Shown piece after piece: positions 9,405-63,269 of a stretch of 64,000 bases of DNA. The stretch comes from Nesterenkonia sp. E16_10. GTDB taxonomy: Bacteria; Actinomycetota; Actinomycetes; Actinomycetales; Micrococcaceae. The DNA is taken from positions 186,001 through 250,000 of the forward strand of contig NZ_JADPSA010000022.1 in NCBI RefSeq assembly GCF_017347085.1. The letters are read 5' to 3'. Both the position numbers and the translations under genes were made by a program. A model generated the notes under the pieces. It ran no database searches, was not told where the DNA came from, and worked only from the letters and a program-made list of their open reading frames with translations. Positions within the stretch are counted from its first letter, which is position 1. Each line of letters starts with the position of its first letter.

Positions 9405-11921
<2,517 letters not shown>

Positions 11922-47439: not shown

Positions 47440-49806
47440 TCAGCTCACGCGGGCCGGGGTGGTCAGCACGCGCTGGCCGCTGATCTCTCGGACCTCGCCG
47501 ACCAGGGTCACCTCGGCCTGCAGCGGCAGCTCCCCCACGGAGGGACCGGCGTAGAGGTCGATCGCGCCGGGCTCCACGATTCGGCGGTAGTGCACCCCGG
47601 TGAAGGAGAACCGGTCCGCGTGGACCTCGAAGGTCACGGTGCGGCTCTGCCCCGGAGCCAGCTCCACCTTGGAGTAGCCGAGCAGCTGGCGCACCGGACG
47701 GGCCACCGAGGCCACCCGGTCACCGAAGTAGAGCTGGGCGACCTCCTCGGTGGGTCGCGCACCGGTGTTTCTCAGCGTCACCGAGACCTCCACGGTGCCG
47801 TCCACCGGGACCTGAGCCTGGGAGACGCTGAGGTCCGAGTACTCCACGGTGGTGTAGCTCAGGCCGTGGCCGAAGGGGTAGAGCGGGGTGGGGTCGAGGT
47901 TGGACACGCCCTGGCTGTTGAGCCCGAGCGGCGCCGCGATATAGCCCGAGGGCTGTCCGCCCGGGTGCACGGGCACGCCGATGGGCAGCCGGCCGGTGGG
48001 CTCGATGGCGCCGCTGAGCAGGTCCACGATGGCGGGGCCGCCTTCCTCTCCGGGGAAGAAGCCCTGCACGATCGCGGCGCAGCGCTGTGCCAGGCCGCCC
48101 AGCGCATAGGGCCGGCCGGAGATGACCACGAGCACCACCGGGGTCCCGGTGGCCAGGACGGCCTCGACCAGCTCGTGCTGGGCGCCGGGGAGCTTGAGGT
48201 CCTCGACGTCGCAGCCTTCCCCGGAGGTGCCGGCGCCGAACATGCCGGCCAGGTCACCGACGGTCACCACGGCCAGGTCTGCCGCGGCGGCGGCTTCGGC
48301 GGCCGCGGCGATCTCGGAGTCGTCATAGCTCACGATGGGTGCACCGTAGCTATAGGTGACCTCGGCCTCGGAGTAGGTCTCGCGCAGGGATTCCAGCACC
48401 GAGGGCATCGGCACGCCGATCCCCTTGTGCGGGAAGGTCCCTGCGGGGTATTTGGCCAGCACGTGGTTGGGGAAGGAGTAGCAGCCCATCATGGTGCGCG
48501 GCTCATCGGCGGAGGGTCCGACCACGGCGATCCGCTTGCCCGCCAGCGACTCGGCAGGGGCCGGCAGGACGCCGTCGTTCTTCAGCAGCACCAGGGACTT
48601 CGCGGCCACCTTGCGGGCCAGGGCCCGGTTGCTCGCGGAGTCCAGGTCCACCGATTCGTCGATGCGGGGCTCCCAGTCGGCGTCGCCCTCGCGGCGGTCG
48701 AGCAGCCCGAGCTCGGCCTTCTGCCGCAGCACCCGACGCACCGAGGCGTCCAGCACGGATTCCTCCAGCAGCCCGTCGCGGACCTGCTGGGCCAGCGTGC
48801 GGTAGCCGCCGGTGTGCGGCAGCTCGACGTCGAGCCCGGCAGAGATCGCGAGCCGGGCGGCCTCGGCCTGGTCGGCCGCCACGTGGTGCATCTTCTCCAG
48901 GAACGCCACCGACCAGTAGTCCGCGACCACGGTGCCCTCGAAGCCCCACTGCTCGCGCAGCACCTCGGTGAGCAGCCAGTGTGAGGCGGCGGGGGCTTCG
49001 CCGTCGATGTCGGCGTAGGAGTTCATCACCGAGCCGACCTTGCCCTCGCGCACGGCGAGCTCGAAGGGGTAGAAGATCATGTCGATGAGTTCACGCCTGC
49101 CCATGTGCACCGGGGCGTGGTTCCGGGCGGCGCGGGAGGCGGCGTAGCCGGCGAAATGCTTCAGCGTGGCGATGATTCCGCTTCCCTGCAGGCCCTTGAC
49201 GTAGGCGGTGGCCAGCGTGCCGATCACATACGGGTCCTCGCCGATGGTCTCCTCCACCCGGCCCCAGCGGGCATCGCGGACCACGTCGAGCACCGGAGAG
49301 AGTCCCTGCTGGACTCCGGTGGCGGCCATGTCGGCGCCGATCGCAGCGGCCATCTCCTCGATCAGCTCCGGATCGAAGGTCGCACCCCAGGCCAGCGAGG
49401 TCGGATAGACCGTGGCCTGGTAAGCGGTGTAGCCGGTGAGGCACTCCTCATGAGCGATCGCGGGGATGCCGAAGCGGTTGGCGGCGACCACGGCGGCCTG
49501 TCGCTGGCGCAGATCTGCGGCCCCTTCGGGCACCGAGAGCGCCACGGTGCCATAGGTGCGGGTCAGGTGCCCTTCGCCGTCGAGGATCTCGGACTCGAAG
49601 GGCAGCTTGCCCGAGGACATCGCGTCCTCCATCGGGGCCACCTCGCCCTGGGTGTCGGGGTCCTCGCGCATCTCCCAGTGCGAGCCGAGCTGGGAGACCT
49701 TCTCCTCCAGCGTCATCTCGGCCAGCAGCGCCTCCGCACGCGCCGAGGCGGAGAGCGAGGTGTCGTTCCAGGGGCCGGTGGTCCGTTCTGGGTTCTGGTT
49801 GCTCAC
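47440..49806 (-). CDS. Glycoside hydrolase family 3 (beta-glucosidase / beta-xylosidase type)
   Basis: The product has 788 residues. The N-terminal GH3 barrel contains RWGRVEETIGEDPYVIG, TLKHFAGY and the nucleophile Asp in TVVADYWSV. The GH3 C-terminal domain (VVTVGDLAGMFGAGTSGEGCD) and a fibronectin-III-like domain (TVEVSVTLRNTG) follow. No signal peptide is present, so it acts on imported oligosaccharides in the cytoplasm. Xylooligosaccharide or beta-glucoside cleavage fits the neighbourhood; specificity cannot be read from sequence. GTG 49806 has AGGAG 7 nt upstream. Confidence 0.93.
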   Translation of the reverse strand: MSNQNPERTTGPWNDTSLSASARAEALLAEMTLEEKVSQLGSHWEMREDPDTQGEVAPMEDAMSSGKLPFESEILDGEGHLTRTYGTVALSVPEGAADLRQRQAAVVAANRFGIPAIAHEECLTGYTAYQATVYPTSLAWGATFDPELIEEMAAAIGADMAATGVQQGLSPVLDVVRDARWGRVEETIGEDPYVIGTLATAYVKGLQGSGIIATLKHFAGYAASRAARNHAPVHMGRRELIDMIFYPFELAVREGKVGSVMNSYADIDGEAPAASHWLLTEVLREQWGFEGTVVADYWSVAFLEKMHHVAADQAEAARLAISAGLDVELPHTGGYRTLAQQVRDGLLEESVLDASVRRVLRQKAELGLLDRREGDADWEPRIDESVDLDSASNRALARKVAAKSLVLLKNDGVLPAPAESLAGKRIAVVGPSADEPRTMMGCYSFPNHVLAKYPAGTFPHKGIGVPMPSVLESLRETYSEAEVTYSYGAPIVSYDDSEIAAAAEAAAAADLAVVTVGDLAGMFGAGTSGEGCDVEDLKLPGAQHELVEAVLATGTPVVLVVISGRPYALGGLAQRCAAIVQGFFPGEEGGPAIVDLLSGAIEPTGRLPIGVPVHPGGQPSGYIAAPLGLNSQGVSNLDPTPLYPFGHGLSYTTVEYSDLSVSQAQVPVDGTVEVSVTLRNTGARPTEEVAQLYFGDRVASVARPVRQLLGYSKVELAPGQSRTVTFEVHADRFSFTGVHYRRIVEPGAIDLYAGPSVGELPLQAEVTLVGEVREISGQRVLTTPARVS

Positions 49807-49926: not shown

Positions 49927-50868
49927 TCACTTGCCGAAGCCTGCGGTCAGTCCGGCCACGATGTGGCGGCGGGCGAGCATGTAGACCACGAGCAGCGGCA
50001 GCGCGGAGAGCACGACGGCGGCCAGGGTGGCCGGCACGTCGATGCCGAACTGGCCGCTGTACTCCCAGAGCGAGAGCGGCAGCACCCGGACGTCGCTGCT
50101 CTGGGTGAGCACCAGCGGGAACAGGAAGCCGTTCCAGACCTGCAGCGCCTGGTAGATGCCCACGGTCATCAGGGCCGGCTTGGCCATCGGCAGCACCAGC
50201 GAGGTGAGGATCTTCCACTCCCCGGCGCCGTCGACCTTCATCGACTCGAAGAGCTCCATCGGGATGTCGCGGACGAAGTTCACGATGATCAGCACGCTCA
50301 ACGGGATCGCGAAGGCGATCTGCGGCAGGATCAGCGCCCAGAGGGTGTCATAGAGACCCAGCTGCTGGATCAGGTAGTACACCGGGATGATCGTGGCCTG
50401 CACCGGGATCGCGATGCCCAGCAGGATCACCTGGAACAGCCGTCGACCACCCAGGGTGGTGGACCGGGCGATGTAGTAGGCGGCCATCACCGAGACGGCG
50501 AGCACGACGGCGACCGTCGAGAGCGTCACGATCAGCGAGTTCGTGAAGTAGTGGAAGAAGTCGTTCTGGATCACCTTGATGAACGGTGCCAGCGTCGGAT
50601 TCGTGGTGGGCAGCAGCTGGTTCGAGGAGCGCAGGTCCTCGCTGGTCCGGAACGAGGTGATGACGATGTAGTAGATCGGCAGAATGATGATGGCCAGCCA
50701 GAGCCAGCCGCCGAGGCCGCCGAGGATGTTCGGCTTCTCTCCCGGGGCGCCCGTGCGGCGGACCTTGTTCTGCTTCACCTCGCGGTGCTCGAAGCCGGGC
50801 ACCTCAGGGTCGAGGGCCTTGCCAGCATCGGGGGTCGCGGATTGGGTGCTTGCGGTGTGAGTCATCAT
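49927..50868 (-). CDS. ABC sugar transporter permease, MalG/carbohydrate type
   Basis: The product has 313 residues, including a cytoplasmic extension of about 50 residues and six membrane helices. The EAA loop is around ELFESMKVDGAGEWKILTSLV, with E-S-M replacing E-A-A, then DG. It pairs with the MalF-like permease whose stop codon it overlaps as ATGA. No ATPase gene is adjacent. Confidence 0.92.
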   Translation of the reverse strand: MMTHTASTQSATPDAGKALDPEVPGFEHREVKQNKVRRTGAPGEKPNILGGLGGWLWLAIIILPIYYIVITSFRTSEDLRSSNQLLPTTNPTLAPFIKVIQNDFFHYFTNSLIVTLSTVAVVLAVSVMAAYYIARSTTLGGRRLFQVILLGIAIPVQATIIPVYYLIQQLGLYDTLWALILPQIAFAIPLSVLIIVNFVRDIPMELFESMKVDGAGEWKILTSLVLPMAKPALMTVGIYQALQVWNGFLFPLVLTQSSDVRVLPLSLWEYSGQFGIDVPATLAAVVLSALPLLVVYMLARRHIVAGLTAGFGK

Positions 50869-51776
50869 GCGCCTGCCTTGTCGCTCTCCATCTTGGATGA
50901 ACCGGAGATGATGTTCAGGGCCAAGGAGAGGGTCAGTCCGATGGCTACCAGGATCACCGCGATGACCGAGGCGTAGCCGAGGTTGTATGAGCTGAAGCCG
51001 GTCACGTACATGTCCAGCGGCAGGATCCGCACCGCGTCGGCGGGCTGGCCGCCGGTGAGCACGAAGATCAGGTCGAAGTAGGTCAGCGAGCCCACGAGCA
51101 TCAGCGTCGAGGAGGTGATGATCGTGTAGCGCAGCTGCGGGATCGTGATCGAGAAGAACTGGCGGACCCGGCCGGCGCCGTCGATGGTGGCGGCCTCATA
51201 CATGGACTGCGGGATCTGGCGCACACCTGCCTGGTAGAGCAGCCCGTGGAAGGGCACGAAGCACCAGCCGACCACGAAGATCATCACCCACATGACCAGG
51301 TCGGAGTTCGACAGCCAGTCATTGGGCAGCCATTCGAAGGGCAGCGCCGCGGAGAGTCCGTAGTTCGGGGAGAACAGCGACTGGAACGTCAGGCCCACGG
51401 CCACCGAGGAGAACAGCAGCGGGAGGAAGTAGAGGACCGCGAGCAGGGCGCGGTAGCGCTGCTGTCCGGCCATGAAGACGCCGAGCAGCAGGGCCACAGG
51501 GGCCTGGAAGAGGTAGGAGCCGATGACGAAGGTGATCGTCAGGCCCAGTGCGGTCCAGGTGAAGGGCCGGTCGAAGAGCACCGCCTGCCAGTTGCTCAGA
51601 CCCACCCAGGTGGGAGAGCCCAGAACGTTCCACTCCATGAAGGAGATCACGACCACCCCGATGAGCGGTATCAGTGCGAATATTCCGAAGAACAGGACGG
51701 CAGGCAGAGCCATGAGGAATGAAGGTCCCTTATGGCCCAATCCGGTCGTCCTGCTTCGAGCAGCGGTTTCAGTCAT
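50865..51776 (-). CDS. ABC sugar transporter permease, MalF/carbohydrate type
   Basis: The product has 303 residues and six membrane helices. The EAA loop is SMYEAATIDGAGRVRQFFSI. It is the first permease of the leftward importer, following the binding-protein gene at 51864 after a hairpin. ATG 51776 is the first in-frame start after that hairpin. Confidence 0.92.
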   Translation of the reverse strand: MTETAARSRTTGLGHKGPSFLMALPAVLFFGIFALIPLIGVVVISFMEWNVLGSPTWVGLSNWQAVLFDRPFTWTALGLTITFVIGSYLFQAPVALLLGVFMAGQQRYRALLAVLYFLPLLFSSVAVGLTFQSLFSPNYGLSAALPFEWLPNDWLSNSDLVMWVMIFVVGWCFVPFHGLLYQAGVRQIPQSMYEAATIDGAGRVRQFFSITIPQLRYTIITSSTLMLVGSLTYFDLIFVLTGGQPADAVRILPLDMYVTGFSSYNLGYASVIAVILVAIGLTLSLALNIISGSSKMESDKAGA

Positions 51777-51811
51777 GGGCTCGATTCAGATCCTGGTTGT
51801 CGGTGCAAGGC

Positions 51812-51852
51812 AATCGGTCCGGGGCGACTGCATCAGCCGCCCCGAACCGATT
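51812..51852 (-). terminator. Intercistronic hairpin between binding protein and permeases
   Basis: A 15-bp stem with one mismatch (51812-51826 with 51838-51852) follows the binding-protein stop by 12 nt. It probably limits read-through so that binding protein exceeds permease. Confidence 0.7.
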
Positions 51853-51863
51853 TCAGGGGTGTA

Positions 51864-53147
51864 TCAGAGGGAGTTCATCGCTTCGACGAACTGCTCGGGG
51901 GTCATGTCCCCGCGGAGGATCTGCGACAGGTTGTCCGTCAGCGGCTGGGCCACCTCAGGGGCGACTGCCTGATCCCAGGAGAGCTGGAAGTGGTTGGCTT
52001 CGCCCACCAGGTCGCTGGAGAACTGCAGGAAGTCGGAGTCCTCGGTCTCGGCGATCTGGTCCTCGATGTCAGACAGCGGCGGCAGCGAGCCGGCCTCCAG
52101 CATCGACGTCACGGTCTCCTCGTTATAGAGGTTCTCGCTGATGTAGTCGAAGGCGATCTGCTGCTCCTCCTCCGAGGCGTCAGCAGAGACCGACCAGAAG
52201 TTGGCGGGGTTGCCCACGATGTTCGAGGGATCACCGGCACCGTCCTCGAGGGTCGGGAAGGAGGTGAAGCCGAAGTCACCGGACTCGGCGAACTCCGGGA
52301 AGTCCTGGTTGATCGTGGAGTAGACCCAGGAGCCCTGCAGCAGCATGGCGGCCTGGCCGTCTGCCAGCAGCTGGGCATCCTCGTTCTGGTCCGCGGTCAC
52401 CGAGTTGTAGGTGTCGATGTAGCCGCCGTTCTCACCCAGGTCCTGCATGGTCTCCAGCGCGAAGAGGATGGACTCGTTGTCCCACGCGCCCTCTTCCCCT
52501 TCGACCACGGCTGCGAAGACCTCTTCGCCGCCGTGGCGATCGGTGAGGTACTGCAGCCACATCAGTGCGGGCCAGACGGAGCCGCCGGCCAGTGAGAAGG
52601 GCGCGACATCGTTCTCGTTGAACGTCTCGATCGCTGCTTCGACGTCTTCCCAGGTCTCGGGGATCTCGACGCCGGCCTCATCGAAGACCGACTGGTTGTA
52701 GTACATGACCACTGGCTGCACGTCGTTCAGCGGCACCGCGTAGGTGCTGTCCTCGACCTGGCCGTTCTGCCAGACCGAGTCGAAGACCCGGGACTCCAGC
52801 TCGCCGGTGTGTTCGCTGAGGTCGACGATGCGCTCTTCCTCGGCGTATTCCAGCAGCGCGCCGCCGGTCCAGGACATGATCAGCGTGGGCGCCTCGCCGG
52901 AGCCGACGGCGGTGCGGATCTGACCCTTATAGGAGTCGTTCTCGATGGCTTCGGTGTCGATCTGGGCGTCTTCGTTGGCTTCGTTCCAGCGGTCGAAGTC
53001 CTCCTGGATGGCGGGCCAGCCGCCTCCGGTGAGGATCCATGCGTCAGCATTGGCGTCGCCGCCGTTGTCGCCGCCGCCGCAGGCCGAGAGGGCCATCAGG
53101 GAGGTGACTCCGAGGCCTGCTGCTGCAATTCGAGTTGTTCTACGCAT
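51864..53147 (-). CDS. Extracellular sugar-binding lipoprotein, paralog B
   Basis: The product has 427 residues. The signal peptide ends in the lipobox LSAC (Cys23), followed by GGGDNGGDAN. It is a family 1 solute-binding protein (AWILTGGGWPAIQEDFDRWN at the start of the mature part). It is clearly paralogous to the gene at 53483: both end in an FQLSWDQAV block followed by an acidic helix. ATG 53147 has AAAGGA 7 nt upstream. It has its own strong promoter in the preceding spacer. Confidence 0.92.
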   Translation of the reverse strand: MRRTTRIAAAGLGVTSLMALSACGGGDNGGDANADAWILTGGGWPAIQEDFDRWNEANEDAQIDTEAIENDSYKGQIRTAVGSGEAPTLIMSWTGGALLEYAEEERIVDLSEHTGELESRVFDSVWQNGQVEDSTYAVPLNDVQPVVMYYNQSVFDEAGVEIPETWEDVEAAIETFNENDVAPFSLAGGSVWPALMWLQYLTDRHGGEEVFAAVVEGEEGAWDNESILFALETMQDLGENGGYIDTYNSVTADQNEDAQLLADGQAAMLLQGSWVYSTINQDFPEFAESGDFGFTSFPTLEDGAGDPSNIVGNPANFWSVSADASEEEQQIAFDYISENLYNEETVTSMLEAGSLPPLSDIEDQIAETEDSDFLQFSSDLVGEANHFQLSWDQAVAPEVAQPLTDNLSQILRGDMTPEQFVEAMNSL

Positions 53148-53323
53148 CGTCGCGTCCTTTCTCATCAAGGCGAGCCCCAGCTCTGTACCGGTACCTGGCC
53201 GAGGCACCCCAGGTGTCCGGATCGGCCGGGTGGGGGATGCTCAGCAGTACAGCGCCGAAGTCCGAACCAGATCCTGCCCGGGACCAGAAAAAGGAACCTG
53301 GCGCAGACTGTGATCTGTATTTC

Positions 53324-53369
53324 GTCTTGCCGTAAGACTAAATAGCCGCCGGGTGTGTGTCAAGACACA
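53324..53369 (-). promoter_or_regulatory. Promoter and operator candidates for binding protein B
   Basis: On the minus strand TTGACA (53358-53363), 17-nt spacer, TAGTCT (53335-53340), the best promoter in this region. GTCTT-N5-AAGAC (53324-53338) straddles the -10 box and start region, and TGTGTC-AA-GACACA (53356-53369) covers the -35 box. Both are operator candidates. Confidence 0.7.
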
Positions 53370-53418
53370 GCACATGACCACCGTCACAGTCCTGCAACAT
53401 GGCGATACACGGCCCAGA

Positions 53419-53457
53419 GGCCTGACCGAGCGCACTGGCTGCGCGCCTGGTCAGGCC
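53419..53457 (-). terminator. Terminator of binding protein A
   Basis: Outer stem GGCCTGACC (53419-53427) with GGTCAGGCC (53449-53457) and inner stem GCGCA/TGCGC (53430-53434, 53440-53444). It lies 26 nt after the paralog A stop and separates it from the downstream importer genes. Confidence 0.75.
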
Positions 53458-53482
53458 CCTGGAGAGTGAATCGATCCACACC

Positions 53483-54778
53483 TCAGTCGGTGGGCTGCGT
53501 GGCGTTCATGTTCTCCGCGAACTCCTCGGGCGTGATGCTTCCCTCGAAGATCTGGCCGAGGTTCTCCAGCAGCGCGCGCTCCTGGCTCGGATCCACCGCC
53601 TGGTCCCAGGAGAGCTGGAAGTTCGGGGCCTCCTGGACCATGTCGTAGGCGAAGCTCAGGAACTCGGGGTCCTCGGTCTCGGCGATCTTGTCCTCGAGAC
53701 CGGTCAGCGGCGGGATGTTGCCGGTCTCGAGCATCCCGTCGACATAGTCGTCGTTGAAGAGCCAGTCGGAGAGGTAGTCGACCCCGGCCTGCTGCTCCTC
53801 CTCGCTGGCGTTGGCCGAGACCGACCAGAAGTTCGCCGGATTGCCCACGATGCTGTTGGGATCCCCCTCGCCATCGGGGATCGACGGGAAGGTGGTCACC
53901 CCGAGATTGCCTGACTCCATGAACTCCGGGCTCTCCTCCAGCAGCCGCGAGTAGACCCACGACCCCTGGAGGACCATGGCCGAGAGGCCGTCGGCCACCA
54001 GGTGTGCATCCTCGTTGTTGTCCGCCACCACGGAGGCGAAGCCGGGATCGAAGGCTCCGGCGTCAACCAGCTCCTGGCAGCGCTCCATGGCTTCGATGAT
54101 CGCCGGGTGGGACCAGGCGTCGGGCTCCCCTGCCACCACGGCCTCGAAGGCCTCAGGCCCGCCGATGCGGTCGGTCAGATAGGAGGCCCACATCAGCATG
54201 GGCCAGAGCGAGCCGCCTGCGAGGGAGAAGGGGTGCACGCCCTGTTCCTGGAAGACCTCGACCGCCTCGAGCAGCTCGTCCCAGTCGGCGGGCACCTCGA
54301 TGCCGGCCTCGTCGAAGAGCTCCTGGTTGTAATACATCATCACCGGCTGCACGTTGTTCATCGGCACCGCATACGTGGTGCCGTCGACCTCGCCGTTGGC
54401 GACCACCGAATCGATGAGTCCTTCGCGCAGCTCCTCGGTGTCCTCTGTGATGTCCGCGACGTAATCGCCCTCGACGTATTCCAGCAGTCCGCCGCCGGTC
54501 CAGCCGACGATCAACGTGGGCGCTTCACCGGAACCCACCGCTGTGCGGATGCGCTCCTTATAGATGTCGTTGGCGAAGCTCTCCACGGTGAAGGCCTGTT
54601 CGGGGTTCTCCTCGTTCCAGGCCTCGAAGTCCTCTTCCACGACGGTCCAGACGCCACCGTTGAGCACCCAGGCGTCGGGCTCTGACTCAGAGTCGCCTCC
54701 GCCGCCGCAGGCGGAGAGCCCGAGCAGGGATCCTGCCGCCAGGACTGCGGTGCTCAGCTGTGCTTTTCTTCCCCACAT
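53483..54778 (-). CDS. Extracellular sugar-binding lipoprotein, paralog A
   Basis: The product has 431 residues with the lipobox LSAC (Cys24) after a basic signal sequence. The mature sequence (AWVLNGGVWTVVEEDFEAWN) parallels paralog B throughout, so the two arose by duplication. Start choice is uncertain: ATG 54778 leaves room for a GGGA ribosome site upstream, while ATG 54787 and ATG 54817 do not. The gene ends in its own terminator, so it may be expressed under different conditions from paralog B while sharing the permeases. Confidence 0.9.
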   Translation of the reverse strand: MWGRKAQLSTAVLAAGSLLGLSACGGGGDSESEPDAWVLNGGVWTVVEEDFEAWNEENPEQAFTVESFANDIYKERIRTAVGSGEAPTLIVGWTGGGLLEYVEGDYVADITEDTEELREGLIDSVVANGEVDGTTYAVPMNNVQPVMMYYNQELFDEAGIEVPADWDELLEAVEVFQEQGVHPFSLAGGSLWPMLMWASYLTDRIGGPEAFEAVVAGEPDAWSHPAIIEAMERCQELVDAGAFDPGFASVVADNNEDAHLVADGLSAMVLQGSWVYSRLLEESPEFMESGNLGVTTFPSIPDGEGDPNSIVGNPANFWSVSANASEEEQQAGVDYLSDWLFNDDYVDGMLETGNIPPLTGLEDKIAETEDPEFLSFAYDMVQEAPNFQLSWDQAVDPSQERALLENLGQIFEGSITPEEFAENMNATQPTD

Positions 54779-54813
54779 AGAAATCATTCCCTGTCTCATC
54801 AAAGTGCGAGTGA

Positions 54814-54829
54814 TCATTCGGTCGAGTGA
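54814..54829 (-). promoter_or_regulatory. Inverted repeat upstream of binding protein A
   Basis: TCATTCGGTCGAGTGA pairs at 6 of 8 positions and lies 36 nt before the start codon. An 8-bp ATCACTCG is also directly repeated here with 16-bp spacing. A regulator site is possible; no convincing -35/-10 pair is seen. Confidence 0.35.
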
Positions 54830-54834
54830 TGAAG

Positions 54835-54854
54835 CGCGCGTGCTTCGACGCGCG
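54835..54854 (-). terminator. Possible gntP terminator
   Basis: CGCGCGT (54835-54841) pairs with ACGCGCG (54848-54854) across a 6-nt loop, 46 nt after the GntP stop. It is a short but GC-only stem. Confidence 0.4.
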
Positions 54855-54900
54855 TCCTGCGATGTATGCGCCTCAGCGGGTCAGCCTCGGCAGCGCGTCC

Positions 54901-56304
54901 TCAGGCGGCGATGGCGTAGACCCCCCAGCTGAGGAAGAAGGCCATGAACCCGATGGCGGTGGCCATGACGGACCAGGTCTTCAGTGTGGTGATCGTGTCG
55001 AAGCCGCAGAAGCGACCCACCAGCCAGAAGCCGGAGTCGTTGAAGTGCGAGAAGGTGATCGAACCCGCCACGATGGCGACCACCAGGGATGCCAGGGCGA
55101 AGCCGTCGAGCCCCAGCTCCATGACGCCGGGGGCCATGATGCCGCCGGCGGTGGTGGCGGCCACGGTGGCCGAGCCCTGCGCCACGCGGATGACCACGGC
55201 GACCAGGAAACCGGCCAGGATGACCGGCAGTCCCATCGCGTCGAGTCCTTCGGCGATGGAGCCGCCGATTCCGGTGGCGGTGAGCACCGCGCCGAAGGCG
55301 CCGCCGGCGCCGGTGATCAGAATGATCGAGCAGACCGGGGCGAGGGCGTTGTCGATCAGATCAGAGAGTGCGTCGCCGAGCTTGCCCGTGCCCTTGCGCG
55401 GCCTGATGAAGAGCAGGTACATCGCGATCAGGGTGGAGATCAGCAGCGCGACCGGGGTGGGGCCGATCAGCTGGGAGAGCGCGTAGCCGAAGCTGTCCTC
55501 GCTGATCCGACCATCGGCGGCCAGCGTGTTGGAGAGCGCGTTGTAGAAGATCAGCGCCAGCGGCAGCAGCAGCACCAGGATCACGGTGCCGAAGGCCGGG
55601 CGTTCGTGCTCCTCGGTGACCCGGGATTCGCCGAAGAGGTTCGGCACCGGGAAGTTCGGGTACCCCTTCGCCATCACAAGCCCGAGCCGGTAGCCGGCCA
55701 GGTACCAGGTGGGGAGTCCGACCATCAGCGCGACGATCAGCACCAGTCCGATGTCCGCGCCCATGACCGTGGCGGCCGCCGTCGGACCGGGGTGCGGCGG
55801 GGTCAGTGCATGCATCATCAGGAAGGCACCGATGGAGGGCAGCACGTAGAGCATGAAGCTGCCCCCGAGCCGGCGCGCCACGGTGTAGATCACCGGCAGC
55901 ATCACGATGAAGCCGGCGTCGAGGAAGATCGGGAACGCGTAGAACAGCGAGGCCACGGCCAGCGCCAGCGGCGCCCGCTTCTCCCCGAAGGTCTTCAGCA
56001 TCTTGTCCGCCAGGACCTGGGCGCCGCCGGAGACCTCGACGAGGCGTCCGAGCACGGCGCCGAAGCCGATCAGCAGCGCCACATTGCCCACCGTGGTGGA
56101 GAAGCCGCCGACGACCACGGAGAGCACGTCCCCTACGGCGATGCCGGCCGCCAGCGCGGTGACCAGCGAGACGATGATCAGGGAGAAGAAGGCATGGAGC
56201 TTGACCTTCACGATCAGCACCAGGAGAAGGAGGATGGAGCCCAGCGCAAGGGTCAGCAGGGCCGCCGTGGGCAGCTCGAAGGCGAGCGTCAGTTCTTCGT
56301 TCAC
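54901..56304 (-). CDS. GntP-family sugar-acid:H+ symporter
   Basis: The product has 467 residues and about 12-14 membrane segments. Family blocks include GFGAVLGRLVEVSGGAQVLAD, FLDAGFIVMLPVIYTVAR, MMHALTPPHPGPTAAATVMG (conserved PPHPGP) and HFNDSGFWLVGRF. GntP proteins import gluconate, gluconate-like aldonates and related hydroxy acids. GTG 56304 overlaps the dehydrogenase stop as GTGA, so uptake and oxidation are translationally coupled. The substrate is inferred to be the sugar acid used by the adjoining catabolic genes. Confidence 0.92.
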   Translation of the reverse strand: MNEELTLAFELPTAALLTLALGSILLLLVLIVKVKLHAFFSLIIVSLVTALAAGIAVGDVLSVVVGGFSTTVGNVALLIGFGAVLGRLVEVSGGAQVLADKMLKTFGEKRAPLALAVASLFYAFPIFLDAGFIVMLPVIYTVARRLGGSFMLYVLPSIGAFLMMHALTPPHPGPTAAATVMGADIGLVLIVALMVGLPTWYLAGYRLGLVMAKGYPNFPVPNLFGESRVTEEHERPAFGTVILVLLLPLALIFYNALSNTLAADGRISEDSFGYALSQLIGPTPVALLISTLIAMYLLFIRPRKGTGKLGDALSDLIDNALAPVCSIILITGAGGAFGAVLTATGIGGSIAEGLDAMGLPVILAGFLVAVVIRVAQGSATVAATTAGGIMAPGVMELGLDGFALASLVVAIVAGSITFSHFNDSGFWLVGRFCGFDTITTLKTWSVMATAIGFMAFFLSWGVYAIAA

Positions 56305-57269
56305 TTCTTGCCCTTAGGTGCGGGGCCGAGCTCGCGCACCAGCTCCCCCATGCGGGCGTAGGCCTTGTTGCGGTAGGCGATGAGCTCCGCCTTGGTCTCG
56401 TCGTCGAAGTCTCCGGTCCACCCCTTGCCGTTCTTCAGACCGTGGCGTCCGGCGTCGACGTTGTCCTTGAGCAGCTCCGGCGCGGCGAGACGCTCGCCGT
56501 AGGCCTCAGAGAGCGTGTTGAATCCGAGCCCGTAGACGTCCAGACCGGCCTGGTCCGCGATCGCGAAGGGGCCGAAGAAGCCCAGCCGGAAGCCGAAGGT
56601 CGTGCGCACCACGGTGTCCACGTCCTCGGCGGTGGCGATGCCCTCCTCCACCACGGAGGCGGCCTCCTTGAGCAGCGCGTACTGCAGTCGGTTGAGCACC
56701 ATGCCGGGGGTGTCCGCCACCTCGGCGCCCTCGCGGCCGGCGCGGGCCAGCAGCTCCTTCACCGCGTCCACCACGTCGGGGGTGGTGGCCTCGCCGGAGA
56801 CCAGCTCGACGCCGGGGATGAAGGGGGCGGGGTTGGAGAAGTGCACGGTGAGGAACCGTTCGGGATGCTTCACCGCGGAGACCAGCACGTGCACCGGGAT
56901 GGTGGAGGTGTTGGTGCCGATGATCGCGTCCGGACGGGCGTGGGCGGAGATCTTGCCCAGCACCTCCCGCTTGACCTCAGGGGATTCGAACACGGCCTCT
57001 TCGATGAAGTCGGCCTCGGCCACTGCCTCCTCCAGGGTGCGCCCGGCGGTGAGGTTGGCCTTGATCCGGTCCGTGGAACCAGCGGCATAGAGTCCCTGGT
57101 CCTCGAACTCCTGGGCCTCGACGAGCAGCCGGGCCAGGCCCTTGCGGGCGGCCTCGACGTCGACGTCGACGATCTCGACCTGCAGGTCTGCCAGCGCGAG
57201 CGACTGTGCGATGCCGCCGCCCATGTAGCCGGCGCCGACGACGGTGACAGTGTTGATGGTTCTAGCCAT
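56301..57269 (-). CDS. NAD-dependent 3-hydroxy-acid dehydrogenase (3HCDH / L-gulonate 3-dehydrogenase-like)
   Basis: The product has 322 residues. The Rossmann domain begins VTVVGAGYMGGGIAQSLALA with an Asp-rich acceptor (VDVDVEAA) indicating NAD. The active-site region NTSTIPVHVL ... TVHFSNPAPFIPGVELV matches the 3-hydroxyacyl-CoA dehydrogenase superfamily His and Asn, and the C-terminal domain follows. In a cluster with a GntP permease and no acyl-CoA genes, oxidation of C3 of an aldonate (as by L-gulonate 3-dehydrogenase) is more likely than fatty-acid oxidation; this is inference. ATG 57269 is the conserved start. Confidence 0.85.
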   Translation of the reverse strand: MARTINTVTVVGAGYMGGGIAQSLALADLQVEIVDVDVEAARKGLARLLVEAQEFEDQGLYAAGSTDRIKANLTAGRTLEEAVAEADFIEEAVFESPEVKREVLGKISAHARPDAIIGTNTSTIPVHVLVSAVKHPERFLTVHFSNPAPFIPGVELVSGEATTPDVVDAVKELLARAGREGAEVADTPGMVLNRLQYALLKEAASVVEEGIATAEDVDTVVRTTFGFRLGFFGPFAIADQAGLDVYGLGFNTLSEAYGERLAAPELLKDNVDAGRHGLKNGKGWTGDFDDETKAELIAYRNKAYARMGELVRELGPAPKGKK

Positions 57270-57360
57270 GGGTCTGAAGTCTCTTTCGTGAGGGGGAGAT
57301 TCGGGCACCACCGTGGTGCGGTGGTGGATCAGCTGGTGTGCGGGCGCGAGGCCGCGGAGC

Positions 57361-58314
57361 TCAGTGGCTCTCGGCGGCGGTGCTGCGCAGCGGACTGTCC
57401 TGGTACGAGGTCAGGACCTGCCGGATGTAGCCGCTGTTCTCGGCGCAGACCCCGATGGAGTCGGAGCCGTAGTGCTCACAGCAGAACGGGCCGGTGTAGC
57501 CGAGCTCAAGGGCTCGACGGATGATCTTGCGGTAGTTGATCAGCCCGTACTTCAGCGGCATCGGCGCGGAGGAGTAGCCGCCGGCCGCCGGGTCTTCGTC
57601 CCGGGTGTAGTTCTTGATATGCCAGAAGTTGGCGTGCGGCAGGACCTTCTCGAACATCTCTTCGTAGGCGGGCATCGGGCGGTGCAGCCGGATGAAGTTG
57701 CCGAGATCGGGGTTGAGCCCGACGGCGGGGTGGTTCACCTCCGCGTGGAAGGCGACCGCCTCGTCGGCGGTCCCGAGGAACGTGTCCTCATACATCTCCA
57801 GGCTCAGCTCGATGCCGTTGGCCTGCGCGTGGTCGCCCAGTTCACGGACCCGTTCCACGGCCAGGGGCCGCAGGGCGGGGTCGTCGTGGTGCCCCTCGGC
57901 GAGCCAGAACCACAGCGCCTGCTCCTGGGCGGGGGTCAGCTTCTGCATGAATCCGGTGTTGACGATGGTGGCGCCGAACTCGGGGGCGATGTCGATGAGC
58001 CGATGGGCATCGGCGAGGTTCGCCTCGCCGTGCTCGCGGTCGACCACCGAGTTTCGGGTCATCGAGATGGACGAGATCTTCAGTCCCTCGTCGGCGAGGA
58101 CCTTCTTGAACTCCTGAAGGCGGGCCGGGGAGAGCTTCTGCAGGGGCAACCATGCATCGGTGGGGTCGATGTGATCGAACCCGAGTTCGCGCATCTGACG
58201 CAGGCAGTCGGACCAGTAGGTCGTCGATGCCTGCCAGACCGGAACACCCTCGGAGGTCTTGCCTCCGAAGGCGAGCATATTGCCGGCGATGGGCCATGAG
58301 GCTGCTGTGAACAT
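57361..58314 (-). CDS. Metal-dependent TIM-barrel sugar enzyme (AP endonuclease 2 superfamily)
   Basis: The product has 317 residues, a xylose-isomerase-like barrel. Four likely metal ligands are visible: Glu in ELSLEMYEDTF, Asp in GLNPDLGNF, His in FWHIKNYTRD and Glu in FCCEHYGSD. Members include hydroxypyruvate and OtnI-type isomerases and sugar-acid decarboxylases (OiaC, as I recall). After the 3-dehydrogenase, decarboxylation or isomerization of a 3-keto sugar acid is the best guess. ATG 58314 has AAGGGAAC upstream, and a promoter-like TTGACA-N17-CAGGAT precedes it. The 92-nt gap to the dehydrogenase is compatible with one operon. Confidence 0.82.
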   Translation of the reverse strand: MFTAASWPIAGNMLAFGGKTSEGVPVWQASTTYWSDCLRQMRELGFDHIDPTDAWLPLQKLSPARLQEFKKVLADEGLKISSISMTRNSVVDREHGEANLADAHRLIDIAPEFGATIVNTGFMQKLTPAQEQALWFWLAEGHHDDPALRPLAVERVRELGDHAQANGIELSLEMYEDTFLGTADEAVAFHAEVNHPAVGLNPDLGNFIRLHRPMPAYEEMFEKVLPHANFWHIKNYTRDEDPAAGGYSSAPMPLKYGLINYRKIIRRALELGYTGPFCCEHYGSDSIGVCAENSGYIRQVLTSYQDSPLRSTAAESH

Positions 58315-58343
58315 TTGTTCCCTTCAAACGTGCGTGCGGGTTC

Positions 58344-58380
58344 ATCCTGGGACAGTTGGCGATCTGTGTCAAGCGTCACA
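58344..58380 (-). promoter_or_regulatory. Promoter and CRP-like site for the TIM-barrel gene
   Basis: Minus-strand TTGACA (58367-58372), 17-nt spacer, CAGGAT (58344-58349). TGTGT-CAAGCG-TCACA (58365-58380) matches TGTGA-N6-TCACA with one mismatch and covers the -35 box. Confidence 0.5.
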
Positions 58381-58405
58381 CCTTGGTACAGGCGTGCATG
58401 AGGGG

Positions 58406-59215
58406 CTACTGGAGCCCGCTGACCTCGGGTTTCCCGGTGGCTGCGGCGATTCTGAGAATCTGGAGATAGCCCTGCAGGGTCCAGGCTGCGCGACCGACGA
58501 AGAGCCCCTGGACTCCAGGGATCAGGAGCATCTCGAGCGCGTTCTCGGGTGAGACGGATCCGCCGTAGAGCAGCGCCTGGACCTGGCCGGCGTACTCGCG
58601 GCTGAGCACCTCGAAGGGTTCGCGCAGCTCCGCGGGGGTGGCCGGGCGGCCCTGGGCGCCGATGGCCCAGATGGGCTCGTAGGCGATGAGCACCCGGCTC
58701 AGCTGGTCCGCGGGGAGACCGCGCAGCGCTCCACGTGCCTGGTCCAGGATGTACGCGGCGGTCTCGCCGCGCTCCTGGACCTGGGCAGGTTCACCGATGC
58801 ACAGCAGCGGCACCAGGCCGTGGCGCAGCGTGCTCGCGACCTTCAGCCGGGTGGTCTCGATGGTCTCGCCGAAGTGCTCGCGGCGTTCGGAGTGGCCGAT
58901 CTCGACCAGCTCGGCCCCGGCGTCGGCGACCTGAGGCACAGAGATCTCCCCGGTCCAGGCGCCGTCGTCCTCCCAGTGGGCGTTCTGCGCCCCGAGCCGC
59001 ACGGCGCTGCCCCGCCCAGGCACATCAGCCCCGCTCGGCTTCGCCAGCTCCTCGGCCACCGCCGCGAGCGCGGTGTGCGGGGGGATGATGAAGGGCTGCA
59101 CCCCGTGCAGCAGCTCGGGGTGCTCCTGGAGGGCCGAGCTCAGGCCGGCGGCAAAGGCGCGCGCCTCGCGCAGCGTCTTGTTCATCTTCCAGCTCGTGCC
59201 GATCCAGCGCGTCAT
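58406..59215 (-). CDS. lerI: Triosephosphate isomerase family protein, probable L-erythrulose-1-phosphate isomerase
   Basis: The product has 269 residues. It keeps the TIM residues: Lys in GTSWKMNKT, His in ELVEIGHSERREHFGE, Glu in AYEPIWAIG and the phosphate-binding LLYGGSVSPENA. Compared with glycolytic TpiA the N-terminal and loop regions differ, and it is linked directly (4-nt gap) to a DhaK-DhaL kinase. This matches EryH/LerI proteins that convert L-erythrulose 1-phosphate to D-erythrulose 4-phosphate. A spare TpiA cannot be excluded by sequence alone. Confidence 0.82.
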   Translation of the reverse strand: MTRWIGTSWKMNKTLREARAFAAGLSSALQEHPELLHGVQPFIIPPHTALAAVAEELAKPSGADVPGRGSAVRLGAQNAHWEDDGAWTGEISVPQVADAGAELVEIGHSERREHFGETIETTRLKVASTLRHGLVPLLCIGEPAQVQERGETAAYILDQARGALRGLPADQLSRVLIAYEPIWAIGAQGRPATPAELREPFEVLSREYAGQVQALLYGGSVSPENALEMLLIPGVQGLFVGRAAWTLQGYLQILRIAAATGKPEVSGLQ

Positions 59216-59219
59216 CGAC

Positions 59220-60941
59220 TCACCGACCCAGATGCTCGGCGAGCGCGGTCATCAGCAGCGCGAAGGAGGTGGCACCCGGGTCTGGGGTTCCCAGGGACTT
59301 CTCCCCCAGCACGCGGGAGCGCCCGAGCCGGGCCTTGAGCTCGGCGGTCGAGGCCGCGGCCTCGGTGGCCACTGCCGCGGCGGACTCCAGGGCGGCGGAG
59401 AAGCCTTCCCCGGCCTGGAATCGGTCCTGCAGCGCCCGCGCGAAGGGGGCGGCGGCGTCGATCATGGTCTTGTCCCCGGGCTGGGCGCCGCCGAGCCGCT
59501 GCACCGCCTCCACGGCATTGTGCAGCGCCGTCACCCCGTCGGCCTCTTCGGGGGCGGAGGTGTCCGAGAGCGCCCGGGATGCGGCGGTCAGCGCCGAGCC
59601 CCACAGGGCGCCGGAGGTGCCGCCGGCAGATTCGGCCCAGGCGGTGCCGGCATGGACCAGCAGCGTGCGGGCGCCGGCTCCACGCTCAAGGGCCCTGCGG
59701 CCTGCCTCCACGGCTCCTCGGGTGCCCAGCACCATGCCCTGACCGTGGTCGCCGTCGCCGGCGACGGCGTCGAGACGACCAAGCTCGTTCTCATGGGTGG
59801 CGCACACCTCGGCGAAGCGTTCCAGGAGCCCCTGGACCGAGGCGGCGGCGGCCTGGGCCTCGCTGGAGGCCTCCGGCACCCGCTCCTCGCCGGGGGTGTA
59901 GAACTCGGTGCGCGGCACCCGCTCGGCGTGGGCGTCGAGGCTGCGCAGATCGCCGCGGCGGTAGGCGGGGGTGTCCACGGCGGCGGTCCAGTGCTCTTCG
60001 AGCTCCTCGTCGAGGAAGACCATGGTCAGCGAGAGTCCTGCCATGTCCAGGCTGGTGACGAACTCGCCGACCTCGGGCGCGACGGCGGTGAGGCCGGCCT
60101 CGGAGAGTCGCTCGGCCACGCGGTGGTAGACCACGAAGAGCTCTTCGTACTTCACCCGGCCGAGTCCGTTGAGCAGCACGGCGACGCGGCCGGAACGGTC
60201 CGCCGGCGCCTCTTCCATGAGGCCTTCGAAGAGCAGGTCTGCGACCTCTTGGGCGGTTCCCATCGGGATGTCGCGGATGCCGGGCTCGCCGTGGATGCCC
60301 AGACCCACTCCCATGGAGGCTTCGGGCACGTGGAACAGCGGCTCTTCGGCTCCCGGGAGTGTGCAGCCGTCGAAGGCCACTCCGAAGGAGCGGGTCGCGT
60401 CATTGGCCTTCCAGGCGATGCGCTCCGCCTCGTCGAGTCCAGCCCCGGCCTCGATGGCGGCCCCGGCGATCTTGAACACCGGCAGGTCTCCGGCGATGCC
60501 TCGGCGGTCTCGGTGGTTCTCCCGGGTGTTGGAGGCGATGTCGTCACTGACCCGGATGATCCGCACGTCCACGCCCTCGGCGCGCAGCTTCTCCGCCGCG
60601 GCGCCGAAGTGCAGGACATCCCCGGCGTAATTGCCGAAGCCCATGATCACGCCGCCGCCGTTCTCGGCGTTGCGCGCCACGGAGTAGACCTGGGAGGCCG
60701 AGGGTGAGGAGAAGATGTTGCCGCAGGGGGCTCCGTGTCCCATGCCGGGCCCCACCCAGCCGGCGAAGGCCGGGTAGTGTCCGGAGCCGCCGCCGATGAC
60801 CAGTGCCGGCTGACCGGCGGGGGTCTCGGTGGATCGGACCACACCGCCGTGGACCGCCGTCACGTACTGGGGGTTGGCCGCCGCGAAGCCGAGCACGGCC
60901 TCCTGGGCGAATGCGGATGCGTCGTTGAGCAAGTAGGTCAT
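59220..60941 (-). CDS. lerK: DhaK-DhaL fused kinase, probable L-erythrulose kinase
   Basis: The product has 573 residues. The DhaK domain (about 1-330) shows GGGSGHYPAFAG, CGNIFSSPSASQV and GLGIHGEPGIRD, whose His forms the hemiaminal with the ketose. The DhaL domain (about 365-573) has VAGDGDHGQGM for ATP-Mg and ESAGGTSGALWG. ATP-dependent DhaKL kinases phosphorylate dihydroxyacetone or tetruloses; mycobacterial LerK makes L-erythrulose 1-phosphate, from memory. Pairing with lerI- and derI-type genes supports the tetrulose. ATG 60941 is the natural DhaK start (TYLLNDASAFAQEAVLG). Confidence 0.85.
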   Translation of the reverse strand: MTYLLNDASAFAQEAVLGFAAANPQYVTAVHGGVVRSTETPAGQPALVIGGGSGHYPAFAGWVGPGMGHGAPCGNIFSSPSASQVYSVARNAENGGGVIMGFGNYAGDVLHFGAAAEKLRAEGVDVRIIRVSDDIASNTRENHRDRRGIAGDLPVFKIAGAAIEAGAGLDEAERIAWKANDATRSFGVAFDGCTLPGAEEPLFHVPEASMGVGLGIHGEPGIRDIPMGTAQEVADLLFEGLMEEAPADRSGRVAVLLNGLGRVKYEELFVVYHRVAERLSEAGLTAVAPEVGEFVTSLDMAGLSLTMVFLDEELEEHWTAAVDTPAYRRGDLRSLDAHAERVPRTEFYTPGEERVPEASSEAQAAAASVQGLLERFAEVCATHENELGRLDAVAGDGDHGQGMVLGTRGAVEAGRRALERGAGARTLLVHAGTAWAESAGGTSGALWGSALTAASRALSDTSAPEEADGVTALHNAVEAVQRLGGAQPGDKTMIDAAAPFARALQDRFQAGEGFSAALESAAAVATEAAASTAELKARLGRSRVLGEKSLGTPDPGATSFALLMTALAEHLGR

Positions 60942-60985
60942 GACTGTCCTCGGGGTCCCGGATCTGCACTCCCGAGACCGGCAGT

Positions 60986-61001
60986 ACAGATGTTCTCTGA
61001 C
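60986..61001. promoter_or_regulatory. Shared operator-like motif between lerK and its regulator
   Basis: ACAGATGT (60986-60993) followed by TCTCTGAC. On the opposite strand the same ACAGATGT followed by ATTTGAC occurs before the RpiB gene (62581-62596). It is a candidate binding site for the SorC/DeoR-like regulator between them. Confidence 0.5.
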
Positions 61002-61078
61002 ATATGTGCTGAGGCCACACTAGAGCAGGAGGCGTGATCGGCACCACTTCTGCGGCAGAGTCGGCGGGCCATCCCAGA

Positions 61079-61084
61079 TACGAT
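61079..61084 (+). promoter_or_regulatory. -10 box for the leaderless sugar regulator
   Basis: TACGAT precedes ATG 61091 by 6 nt. An AGGAGG at 61027-61032 is too close to the upstream GTG 61034 to serve it. Confidence 0.5.
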
Positions 61085-61090
61085 GGCCCG

Positions 61091-62050
61091 ATGGAGGCAA
61101 CTGAGGTCACGAAGGAGGCAGCCGCGGGCACATCCGAGCTGGAGCGCCTGTACCGCGCCGCCCAGCTCTACTACGAGCAGGGCGCGACGCAGGCTGAGGT
61201 GGCCGAGCAGCTGAAGGTCTCACGCCCCTCGGTGAGCCGCATGCTGGCCGAGGCGCGCGCCCAGGGGATCGTGGAGATCCGGGTGCATCGACCCGCCTCG
61301 ACCGGCATGGATGAGCTGGGTGAGCGGCTCGCGCTGAAGCTCGGCCTCGACGGCGTGCATCTGGCGCCGGGGGATCAGTCCCAGCGCGTGGGGCTGGGCC
61401 TGGGACCGGTGGCTCGCCAGGCCCTGGCCGAGACGAACCTGCGCGCCGGGGATGTGCTGTTGCTGGCCTCGGGAGAGACCACATACGCGCTGGCCCAGCA
61501 GAGGCTGGGGAACTTTTCCGGCGTCGTGGTGGCGCCGACCGTCGGGGGGCAGGCCGAGCCGGACCCCTGGCACCAGACCAATGAGGTGGTGCGCGCCTTC
61601 GCCGCCACCTCAGGCGGCTACCCGCACTACCTCTTCGCACCTTCGATGCCCTCGGAGGCGCTGCTCTCGGCCCTGCAGGACGACCCTGGGTACCGCCAGG
61701 TGGTCGCCGACTGGAACTCGGCGAAGGTGGCGCTGGTAGGAATTGGAGCCGCACCGCTCTCGCGAAACTCCATCGCCCAGTCGGTGCCGAGGAACCACCC
61801 GAACCTGGCGAGGTCGATCGGCGACGTCTGCCTGGCCTTCTACGACCCGCAGGGCAATGAGGTCACCTTCCCGGGCAGCGAGCGCATGGTCCGGGTCCCG
61901 GGTCCCACGCTGCGCGCGGTGCCGACCCGGATCGCTGCAGCGGTGGGCACGCATAAGGCTCCGAGCATCATCGCCGCAGCCAGCGCCGGATGGTTCAACA
62001 TCTTGGTGACCGATGAATCAACGGCTCGCGCCGTGGATCGTCAGCTCTAG
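61091..62050 (+). CDS. SorC/DeoR-like sugar-binding transcriptional regulator
   Basis: The product has 319 residues. The N-terminal helix-turn-helix ([19 protein letters not shown]) is the sigma-like HTH of the SorC family, and the rest is a sugar-isomerase-fold effector domain ([39 protein letters not shown]). It probably senses a phosphorylated sugar such as erythrulose phosphate. Divergent from lerK and convergent with the RpiB gene, it is the obvious local regulator. ATG 61091 is preferred to the in-frame GTG 61034 by the -10 spacing. Confidence 0.9.
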
Positions 62051-62523
62051 CTGCAGCTGCCGGTGTCCTCGTAGCGGGTGATCGCACCGACCTTCTCCGC
62101 CGAGGCGCTGGCGGGGTCGAAGTCATGCTTGAGCCACTCGTCCACGAGCTTGCGGGCGAGCTCCTTGCCGATCACACGTTCACCCATGCAGAGGATCTGT
62201 GCGTTGTTCGAGAGCACGCCGCGCTCGACCGAGTAGGCGTCGTGGGCGGTCACGGCGCGCACTCCCTTGACCTTGTTGGCGGAGATCGCCACGCCGAGTC
62301 CGGTGCCGCAGATCAGCACGGCGCGGTCGGCCTGGTCTGAGGCGACCCGCTCTGCCGCGGCCACGGCGATGTTCGGGTAGGCCGTCTTGTCGGAGGCGTC
62401 GCCGACGCCGACATCGACCACTTCAGAGACCCGTGGATGGGCCTCGAGGTCCGCCTTCAGCGCCTCCTTATAGGAGTGACCGGCCTCATCGCTGCCGATG
62501 ACGATACGAAACTGACTCTTCAT
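62047..62523 (-). CDS. derI: RpiB/LacAB-family sugar-phosphate isomerase, probable D-erythrulose-4-phosphate isomerase
   Basis: The product has 158 residues. RpiB-fold signatures are [30 protein letters not shown] with the catalytic Cys, [20 protein letters not shown] and a C-terminal EWLKHDF. It could be ribose-5-phosphate isomerase B, but the link to lerK and lerI favours the DerI role, turning D-erythrulose 4-phosphate into D-erythrose 4-phosphate. GGAGGAG lies 5 nt before ATG 62523. Its stop overlaps the regulator's stop within CTAG. Confidence 0.82.
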
Positions 62524-63192: not shown

Positions 63193-63269
63193 GTGACACT
63201 CCTTGTGCTGTTGAGGCAATTGGCGCTGTTCGGCGCCGACCCTCTTGATACTAATGATTCAGAAAAGCG

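Follow-up and report, generated by a model that had tools for sequence, protein, structure and literature searches.

The stretch analysed here, 64,000 nucleotides of Nesterenkonia sp. E16_10 (contig NZ_JADPSA010000022.1; hereafter the window), carries at positions 54901–62523 a seven-gene module that may convert a C5 aldonic acid, through a 3-keto pentonate and erythrulose, to D-erythrose 4-phosphate; we give this reading a probability of a little over one half. The seven genes had been claimed in a first-pass annotation of the window, and all of them are intact open frames which profile searches assigned to the families it named. They encode a GntP-family permease, a 3HCDH-type NAD dehydrogenase (HCDH), an AP_endonuc_2 metal TIM barrel (BAR), an isomerase resembling triose-phosphate isomerase (TIM), a fused DhaK-DhaL kinase (KL), a SorC-type regulator and an RpiB-like isomerase. 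The SorC gene lies on the plus strand between the RpiB and KL genes, and the other six genes are on the minus strand. The genes for KL, TIM, BAR, HCDH and GntP (60941 to 54901) stand no more than about 90 bases apart, and a single transcript is predicted for them. This gene grouping is more than chance, because HCDH, BAR, TIM, KL and RpiB recur together elsewhere (at 65–75% identity in locus L026 and 35–64% in L027) and co-occur across genomes.

In the proposed pathway, GntP would import the C5 aldonic acid and HCDH would use NAD to oxidise its C3 (beta-carbon) hydroxyl, giving the 3-keto acid. BAR would release CO2, and protonation of the resulting enediolate would yield erythrulose, most likely L-erythrulose. 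KL would phosphorylate erythrulose to L-erythrulose 1-phosphate, the LerI-type TIM would convert this to D-erythrulose 4-phosphate, and the RpiB-like enzyme would turn the latter into D-erythrose 4-phosphate, which would enter the pentose phosphate pathway. SorC would regulate the genes from the divergent promoter. No paper in the open-licence literature searched names an HCDH/BAR route, a set from which subscription papers are mostly missing, so it does not follow that the route is unpublished.

Co-occurrence and the proposed entry dehydrogenase

BAR was identified in 56 of 198 genomes sampled across the order, representing 20 of 72 genera. HCDH identities in these genomes show a visible gap, with values of at least 52% in 48 genomes, 42% in one and 39% or less in the remainder. 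The ortholog cut was set at this gap (52%), which excluded G555, the genome with the 42% relative and without BAR. Counted over genomes that share ancestry and are not phylogenetically independent, BAR is present in 48/48 genomes with an HCDH ortholog, RpiB of the window type in 48/48 and KL in 47/48; among the BAR genomes, RpiB and KL were each found in 55/56. The genomes in which RpiB or KL was missed are G423 and G428, both drafts, in 1060 and 110 contigs. A second TIM, defined as two or more TIM matches in the genome, accompanies HCDH in 41/48 genomes and BAR in 46/56. The distance between HCDH and BAR is 5 kb or less in 43 of the 48 genomes, a count that leaves out the second HCDH copies of G008 and G519. 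In a sample of 396 genomes from the phylum, BAR matches (E 0.001 or better) were present in 20 and strong ones (E 1e-80 or better) in four, the Nesterenkonia sp. E16_10 genome included. The 80 named BAR loci are the best 80 of at least 539 confirmed and hence biased toward close relatives; the BAR of Nesterenkonia sandarakina is 94% identical to that of the window. Outside Actinomycetota, Carnimonas nigrificans (L069) carries BAR (67% identity) and HCDH (53%) together with KL, RpiB and TIM, a distribution that suggests horizontal transfer of the module.

The HCDH gene (56301..57269, minus strand; 3HCDH_N PF02737, 166 bits; 3HCDH PF00725, 77 bits) shares 4 bases with the frame of the GntP gene (54901..56304, minus strand). 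The latter was confirmed as a GntP-family member (PF02447, 375 bits; TIGR00791, 340 bits, above cutoff), in line with the acid-type permease proposed earlier, and encodes a putative sugar-acid importer. Alternative upstream starts exist for HCDH (57311) and RpiB (62592); the frames called in close relatives agree with 57269 and 62523, as given by a gene caller that places some starts wrongly. In alignment A5, the bounds of row L042 are wrong.

The top NCBIfam models for HCDH are 3-hydroxybutyryl- and 3-hydroxyacyl-CoA dehydrogenases, every one scoring below its cutoff, as might be expected if HCDH were a CoA-dependent beta-oxidation enzyme located here by chance. The motifs of HCDH differ, however, from those of the two CoA enzymes to which it was aligned. 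HCDH has HFSNPAPFIPGVE where these enzymes have HFFNPxPxMxLVE and read HFFNPAPVMKLVE or HFFNPVPLMQLVE, and an unbroken GFRLGFFGPFA stretch opposite which they lack three residues. The non-CoA FHMPC dehydrogenase 4om8 has the motif HWSNPPHIIPMIE, is likewise ungapped in that stretch and aligns more closely with HCDH than either CoA enzyme does. HCDH thereby combines the 3HCDH fold with the lack of the CoA-enzyme motif and is a putative non-CoA beta-hydroxy-acid dehydrogenase, which agrees with the first-pass annotation. Based on these motifs and on the constant company of BAR, the beta-oxidation role was rejected and is scarcely credible.

We also observed an arrangement that we regard as new: elsewhere among actinobacteria, and on plasmids of Sinorhizobium, BAR is accompanied not by HCDH and GntP but by a PdxA-like enzyme, in most cases together with a TctA-type transporter. 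Using identity thresholds of our own choice, we found HCDH in 60 of 101 BAR stretches, the PdxA-like enzyme in 16 and both in none. For the 86 stretches of at least 15 kb, to which the same choice of thresholds applies, the counts were 50 with HCDH, 15 with the PdxA-like enzyme and 21 with neither; the hypergeometric probability of zero overlap is 2.6e-7, calculated on rows that are not independent. The transporters exchange along with the dehydrogenases, since GntP was found in 23/50 HCDH stretches versus 1/15 PdxA stretches, and TctA in 1/50 versus 13/15. The stretches with a PdxA-like gene beside BAR and without HCDH, mostly with the TctA-type transporter, are L059, L068, L071, L079, L081, L088, L091, L092, L096, L110–L113, L122, L134 and L136. 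Genes for PdxA, TctCBA, BAR and KL are clustered in Shinella, Pararhizobium and Paracoccus. Plasmid pSymB of Sinorhizobium meliloti 1021 (L110, NC_003078.1, about 1558.7–1565.6 kb) carries a PdxA-TctC-TctA-BAR-DhaKL cluster, unannotated in the PLSDB copy, which gives access to the PdxA version through a genetic model. Sinorhizobium BG8 has BAR and KL, with PdxA undetected.

DUF1537 was undetected in 15/15 PdxA stretches, and the acid is therefore probably not phosphorylated first in these loci. The 3HCDH-type and PdxA-like enzymes belong to unrelated families that both oxidise beta-hydroxy acids, which suggests that the two versions share a 3-keto acid intermediate. We propose tentatively, at somewhat short of even odds, a C5 sugar-acid pathway in which these unrelated dehydrogenases, each tending to be paired with a transporter of its own (GntP or Tct), supply a single BAR decarboxylase that forms erythrulose. 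If this is true, BAR marks the pathway in roughly one in four of the genomes sampled from the order, in mycobacteria and on Sinorhizobium plasmids.

Among further neighbours of BAR, a short-chain dehydrogenase (SDR) of one family is found in 30 of the 86 stretches, for example at 10972–11775 of L053, and may act on a sugar acid or a polyol. In L123 (genome G413), BAR, KL and RpiB are accompanied by a periplasmic-binding protein, a lactonase-like amidohydrolase_2 protein, a 2-hydroxyacid dehydrogenase and an aldo-keto reductase, which possibly represent a sugar-to-acid entry.

The probable route from erythrulose to erythrose 4-phosphate

The half of the pathway leading from erythrulose to D-erythrose 4-phosphate appears well supported by sequence comparisons. 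KL (59220..60941, minus strand) contains Dak1 and Dak2 (365 and 154 bits) in one chain, as in kinases of the DhaK-DhaL type, scores above the NF011049 cutoff (739 bits) and is a putative L-erythrulose 1-kinase. The TIM-like isomerase (58406..59215, minus strand; TIM family, 217 bits) exceeds the cutoff of NF000722, "triose-phosphate isomerase" (336 versus 293 bits). Its best PDB match is 11ef, "L-erythrulose-1-phosphate isomerase", at 234 bits, compared with 156 bits for the best TIM. The genome (G000) encodes another TIM at C5:13127-13867. In a tree of 26 rows, six housekeeping TIMs, this one included, form a single clade (100/100) with the window TIM outside, which sets the latter apart from canonical triosephosphate isomerases. 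The clade of the window TIM has 12 rows (98/95) and contains nine BAR-locus TIMs, the second G400 TIM and one TIM of an apparent erythritol locus in Paracoccus. Seven other BAR-locus TIMs form a third set of eight rows with a TIM from an Erwinia operon. BAR loci therefore use TIMs of two kinds, both distinct from the housekeeping one. The TIM gene is a putative LerI-type isomerase gene on this basis.

The RpiB-like isomerase (62047..62523, minus strand; LacAB_rpiB, 155 bits) scores above the cutoff of TIGR02133 (207 bits) and below that of NF051858, the model for rhizobial DerI (156 bits against a cutoff of 240). Because it passes the ribose-5-phosphate isomerase model and misses the DerI cutoff, it is from gene context that we infer DerI activity. 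The first-pass annotation had likened the end of the pathway to LerK, LerI and DerI, and this likeness is backed by the TIM clade and by the presence of RpiB and KL in nearly every BAR genome. The LerK/LerI/DerI system is reportedly the tetritol catabolism of Mycolicibacterium smegmatis worked out by Huang et al. in 2015, and two other articles (PMC10733421, PMC12780249) also deal with it. The window would share its three last steps, from L-erythrulose to D-erythrose 4-phosphate, and differs in entry, which involves an acid permease and an acid dehydrogenase rather than tetritol dehydrogenases. The alphaproteobacterial erythritol locus has the components EryABC, EryH/TpiB and EryI/RpiB. Its TIM-like isomerase is 50% identical to the window TIM and its RpiB-like protein 43% identical to that of the window, whereas its first enzymes are a kinase of the FGGY type and one resembling glycerol-3-phosphate dehydrogenase, and it includes no decarboxylation. 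Enzymes of the proposed pathway could serve erythrulose production or erythrose 4-phosphate supply.

A LerI-type TIM implies L-erythrulose and thus an L-pentonate, or a branched acid, as the likely window substrate. D-Erythrulose would fit as the product wherever a BAR genome has no second TIM, as well as in G422 and G490, where BAR-HCDH is apart from KL/RpiB; the LerI step would be dispensable in such lineages. The loci of these two genomes (L116–L118, L124 and L125) carry a BAR-HCDH pair with neither KL nor RpiB nearby and without a second TIM in the genome. Their RpiB gene stands beside an FGGY kinase gene and, by eye, HAD and dehydrogenase genes with relatives in L074.

The same genes might serve a C4 route, in which threonate or erythronate would be oxidised to 3-oxotetronate and this decarboxylated to dihydroxyacetone, with KL as a true dihydroxyacetone kinase and TIM as the isomerase. 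Such a route would suit four plasmid loci composed of PdxA, Tct transporter, BAR and KL genes without isomerases; 3-oxo-tetronate kinase and aldolase genes that come next in Paracoccus; and L053 and L062, in which LtnD and DUF1537 genes come after those for HCDH and GntP. RpiB would be needless for it, however, despite being present in every HCDH genome, and the window TIM falls outside the housekeeping clade. Moreover, the Paracoccus TOH plasmid with the PdxA-BAR cluster also bears the TIM and RpiB of the apparent erythritol locus. The ubiquity of RpiB and the TIM clade led us to reject a pure dihydroxyacetone route, and we keep the C4 version as an improbable rival. The first-pass annotation had reported neither a DUF1537 kinase nor a tetritol dehydrogenase. 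This holds for the nine window proteins scanned (51864–62523), among which no DUF1537 kinase, class II aldolase or PF16896 (ApnO-type) protein was identified; it does not extend to the HCDH stretches at large, of which 7/50 carry DUF1537, 7/50 an LtnD-like gene and 15/50 an unassigned SDR. Orthologous clusters that always carry a tetritol dehydrogenase, which the first-pass annotation had named as a refutation, were not seen, although no search of each tetritol dehydrogenase family was made.

The barrel enzyme and the apionate-type pair

BAR (57361..58314, minus strand; PF01261, 113 bits) is a putative 3-keto-acid decarboxylase. It is about 70% identical to PDB 5TNV, a Mg-bound xylose isomerase-like TIM barrel from M. 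smegmatis whose entry title names no function and which is named in no paper of the open-licence literature searched. The predicted structure of BAR (pLDDT 92.8) matches 5TNV with a TM score of 0.94. We know of no function for either HCDH or BAR, and the proposed reaction offers a testable role for an enzyme family with a solved structure. Residues E173, D203, H232, E280, R87, R209, K234, R238, R262, W135 and W137 are invariant in the BAR alignment of 28 sequences. Based on the family and on Mg-bound 5TNV, the first four are the predicted metal ligands. The divalent metal would hold the 3-keto/2-hydroxy part of the substrate, whereas R87, R209, K234, R238 and R262 would orient the carboxylate.

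The decarboxylase reading has three grounds, namely the position of an OiaC-type protein in a parallel operon, a count of carbon atoms and the precedent of gulonate metabolism. The count is that of a C4 kinase/isomerase chain located behind an acid importer, which would fit the loss of one carbon at BAR. For gulonate, mammalian L-gulonate 3-dehydrogenase (CRYL1), which has the 3HCDH fold, is followed by the metal beta-keto-acid decarboxylase C11orf54, or 3-dehydro-L-gulonate decarboxylase (commentary, PMC12435205). In both cases a 3HCDH-fold enzyme would form a 3-keto aldonate that a metal enzyme decarboxylates to a ketose; the mammalian pair acts on a C6 acid to give L-xylulose, and its decarboxylase is a DUF1907 protein of another Pfam family than BAR, in which PF08925 (DUF1907) had no match and PF01261 was the sole hit. 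The comparison suggests that bacteria have, in HCDH and BAR, a counterpart of this mammalian pair for gulonate, and formation of a 3-keto acid followed by decarboxylation to erythrulose is plausible. It would also explain why genes annotated as "hydroxyacyl-CoA dehydrogenase" and as "sugar phosphate isomerase/epimerase" recur beside those of erythrulose-type kinases.

The parallel operon is found on a plasmid of Erwinia E602 (L132), where DhaKL, TIM, OiaC-like, ApnO-like and SorC genes form a row adjoined by major facilitator superfamily (MFS) transporter and rpiB genes. This is the gene plan of the window with an ApnO/OiaC-type pair instead of HCDH/BAR; the window proteins are 53% (KL), 45% (RpiB), 36% (TIM) and 28% (SorC) identical to their Erwinia counterparts, and the window has a GntP permease in place of the MFS transporter. 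The oxidative D-apionate pathway, ApnO-OiaC-LerK-LerI-DerI, was reportedly described by Carter et al. in Nat Chem Biol in 2018. Like the pathway proposed here, it leads from an acid through a 3-keto acid to L-erythrulose by means of an AP_endonuc_2 protein, followed by a kinase and TIM-like and RpiB-like isomerases, and the operon plan is shared. It differs in using ApnO (PF16896) rather than a 3HCDH enzyme, and BAR belongs to a subfamily separate from OiaC, with 23% identity in a profile alignment to an OiaC-like reference, a set of homologs so named from their gene context rather than a characterised OiaC. The first-pass annotation had considered that the module might be an actinobacterial version of such an apionate-type route. 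HCDH would then act for ApnO and BAR for OiaC, and the order KL-TIM-barrel-dehydrogenase would agree with this. Apionate has a tertiary C3, however, which a beta-hydroxy-acid dehydrogenase cannot oxidise, so that by HCDH chemistry it cannot be the window substrate. In addition, the HCDH/BAR and ApnO/OiaC-type pairs occur together in four loci, namely L053, L057 and L062 of Brachybacterium and L037 of Nesterenkonia sp. F, and in L053 and L062 both stand beside a single KL/RpiB/TIM core. BAR and the ApnO/OiaC genes without HCDH were found in L059, L064, L065 and L080. Because four loci hold both pairs, HCDH/BAR would be a parallel erythrulose entry and not an apionate variant; the window probably does not encode an apionate pathway, and the route is very improbable here. 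In Paracoccus the ApnO-like family (PF16896) adjoins annotated OiaX and four-carbon acid sugar kinase genes.

The main rival to the decarboxylase reading makes BAR a ketose or keto-acid epimerase/isomerase. Decarboxylation of the product of HCDH or of the PdxA-like enzyme would be spontaneous or catalysed by that same enzyme, and BAR would form the isomer accepted by KL, from erythrulose or from a keto acid. Most Foldseek hits of BAR that rank after 5TNV are sugar 3-epimerases and isomerases (14–19% identity), and the best NCBIfam model is that for L-ribulose-5-phosphate 3-epimerase (40 bits, below the cutoff of 200). The retention of BAR beside PdxA-like enzymes, which usually carry out decarboxylation on their own, fits as well. 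The fold and metal site, however, are common to the superfamily, so such matches cannot separate reactions, and the OiaC-type protein that takes the equivalent place in the Erwinia operon belongs to the Pfam family of BAR. The structural model suits a decarboxylase and an epimerase alike, and we regard the epimerase as unlikely on balance.

Beyond the epimerase-like matches, several observations weigh against the proposed pathway. BAR beside PdxA need not decarboxylate, given the usual activity of PdxA enzymes. Neither dehydrogenase was found in 25 of the 101 BAR stretches. In the 56 BAR genomes, RpiB is not within 10 kb of BAR in 15, KL in 14 and HCDH in 12, and 10 of these genomes miss a second TIM. 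KL, TIM and RpiB are all present in 33/60 HCDH stretches, some of which are short, and among the five plasmid loci of BAR not one has an adjoining RpiB or TIM gene. The window RpiB scores better as an actinobacterial ribose-5-phosphate isomerase than as DerI. Finally, OiaC-like sequences are no closer to BAR than a Hyi-like protein, with single-sequence scores of 40–75 versus 54 (the alignment-versus-alignment comparison scored 81); this overlap left the placement of BAR beside OiaC by profile comparison unsupported.

The regulator and flanking genes

The SorC/DeoR-type sugar-binding regulator (61091..62050, alternative start 61034, plus strand; Sugar-bind PF04198, 117 bits) is preceded by a candidate operator, ACATATGTCAGAGAACATCTGTAC (60984..61007, no strand assigned), between the KL and SorC genes. 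The pattern was drawn from, and is kept in, seven loci (the window and six of Nesterenkonia); it has 1 match within the window versus 0.05 expected and is exact in 6/150 loci.

Downstream of the module are a neighbouring ABC sugar importer (49927..54817, minus strand), with substrate-binding proteins at 53483–54817 and 51864–53207 and permeases at 50865–51776 and 49927–50868, and a GH3 glycosidase (47440..49806, minus strand; PF00933/PF01915). The latter is probably a beta-xylosidase (best PDB match 7zb3, beta-xylosidase, 599 bits). Substrate-binding protein or permease genes come after the module in several Nesterenkonia loci, and GH3 is seen again in several of them. Of 23 GH39 places, 8 are no more than 20 kb from BAR (G406, G422, G436, G450, G476, G490, G504 and G574), after two split matches were merged by hand; the nearest miss is 20.1 kb away. 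Beta-xylosidases were dropped as a clue to the substrate, as these GH39 cases are all of one family and GH3 is near BAR in at least 3 places among the matches listed.

ARAGORN identified no tRNA in the window. On its other side the module is flanked by a ferritin-like gene (62689–63219), which we take to be of the Dps type, and by the end of a class II aminoacyl-tRNA synthetase gene (63308–64000), presumably of the seryl type.

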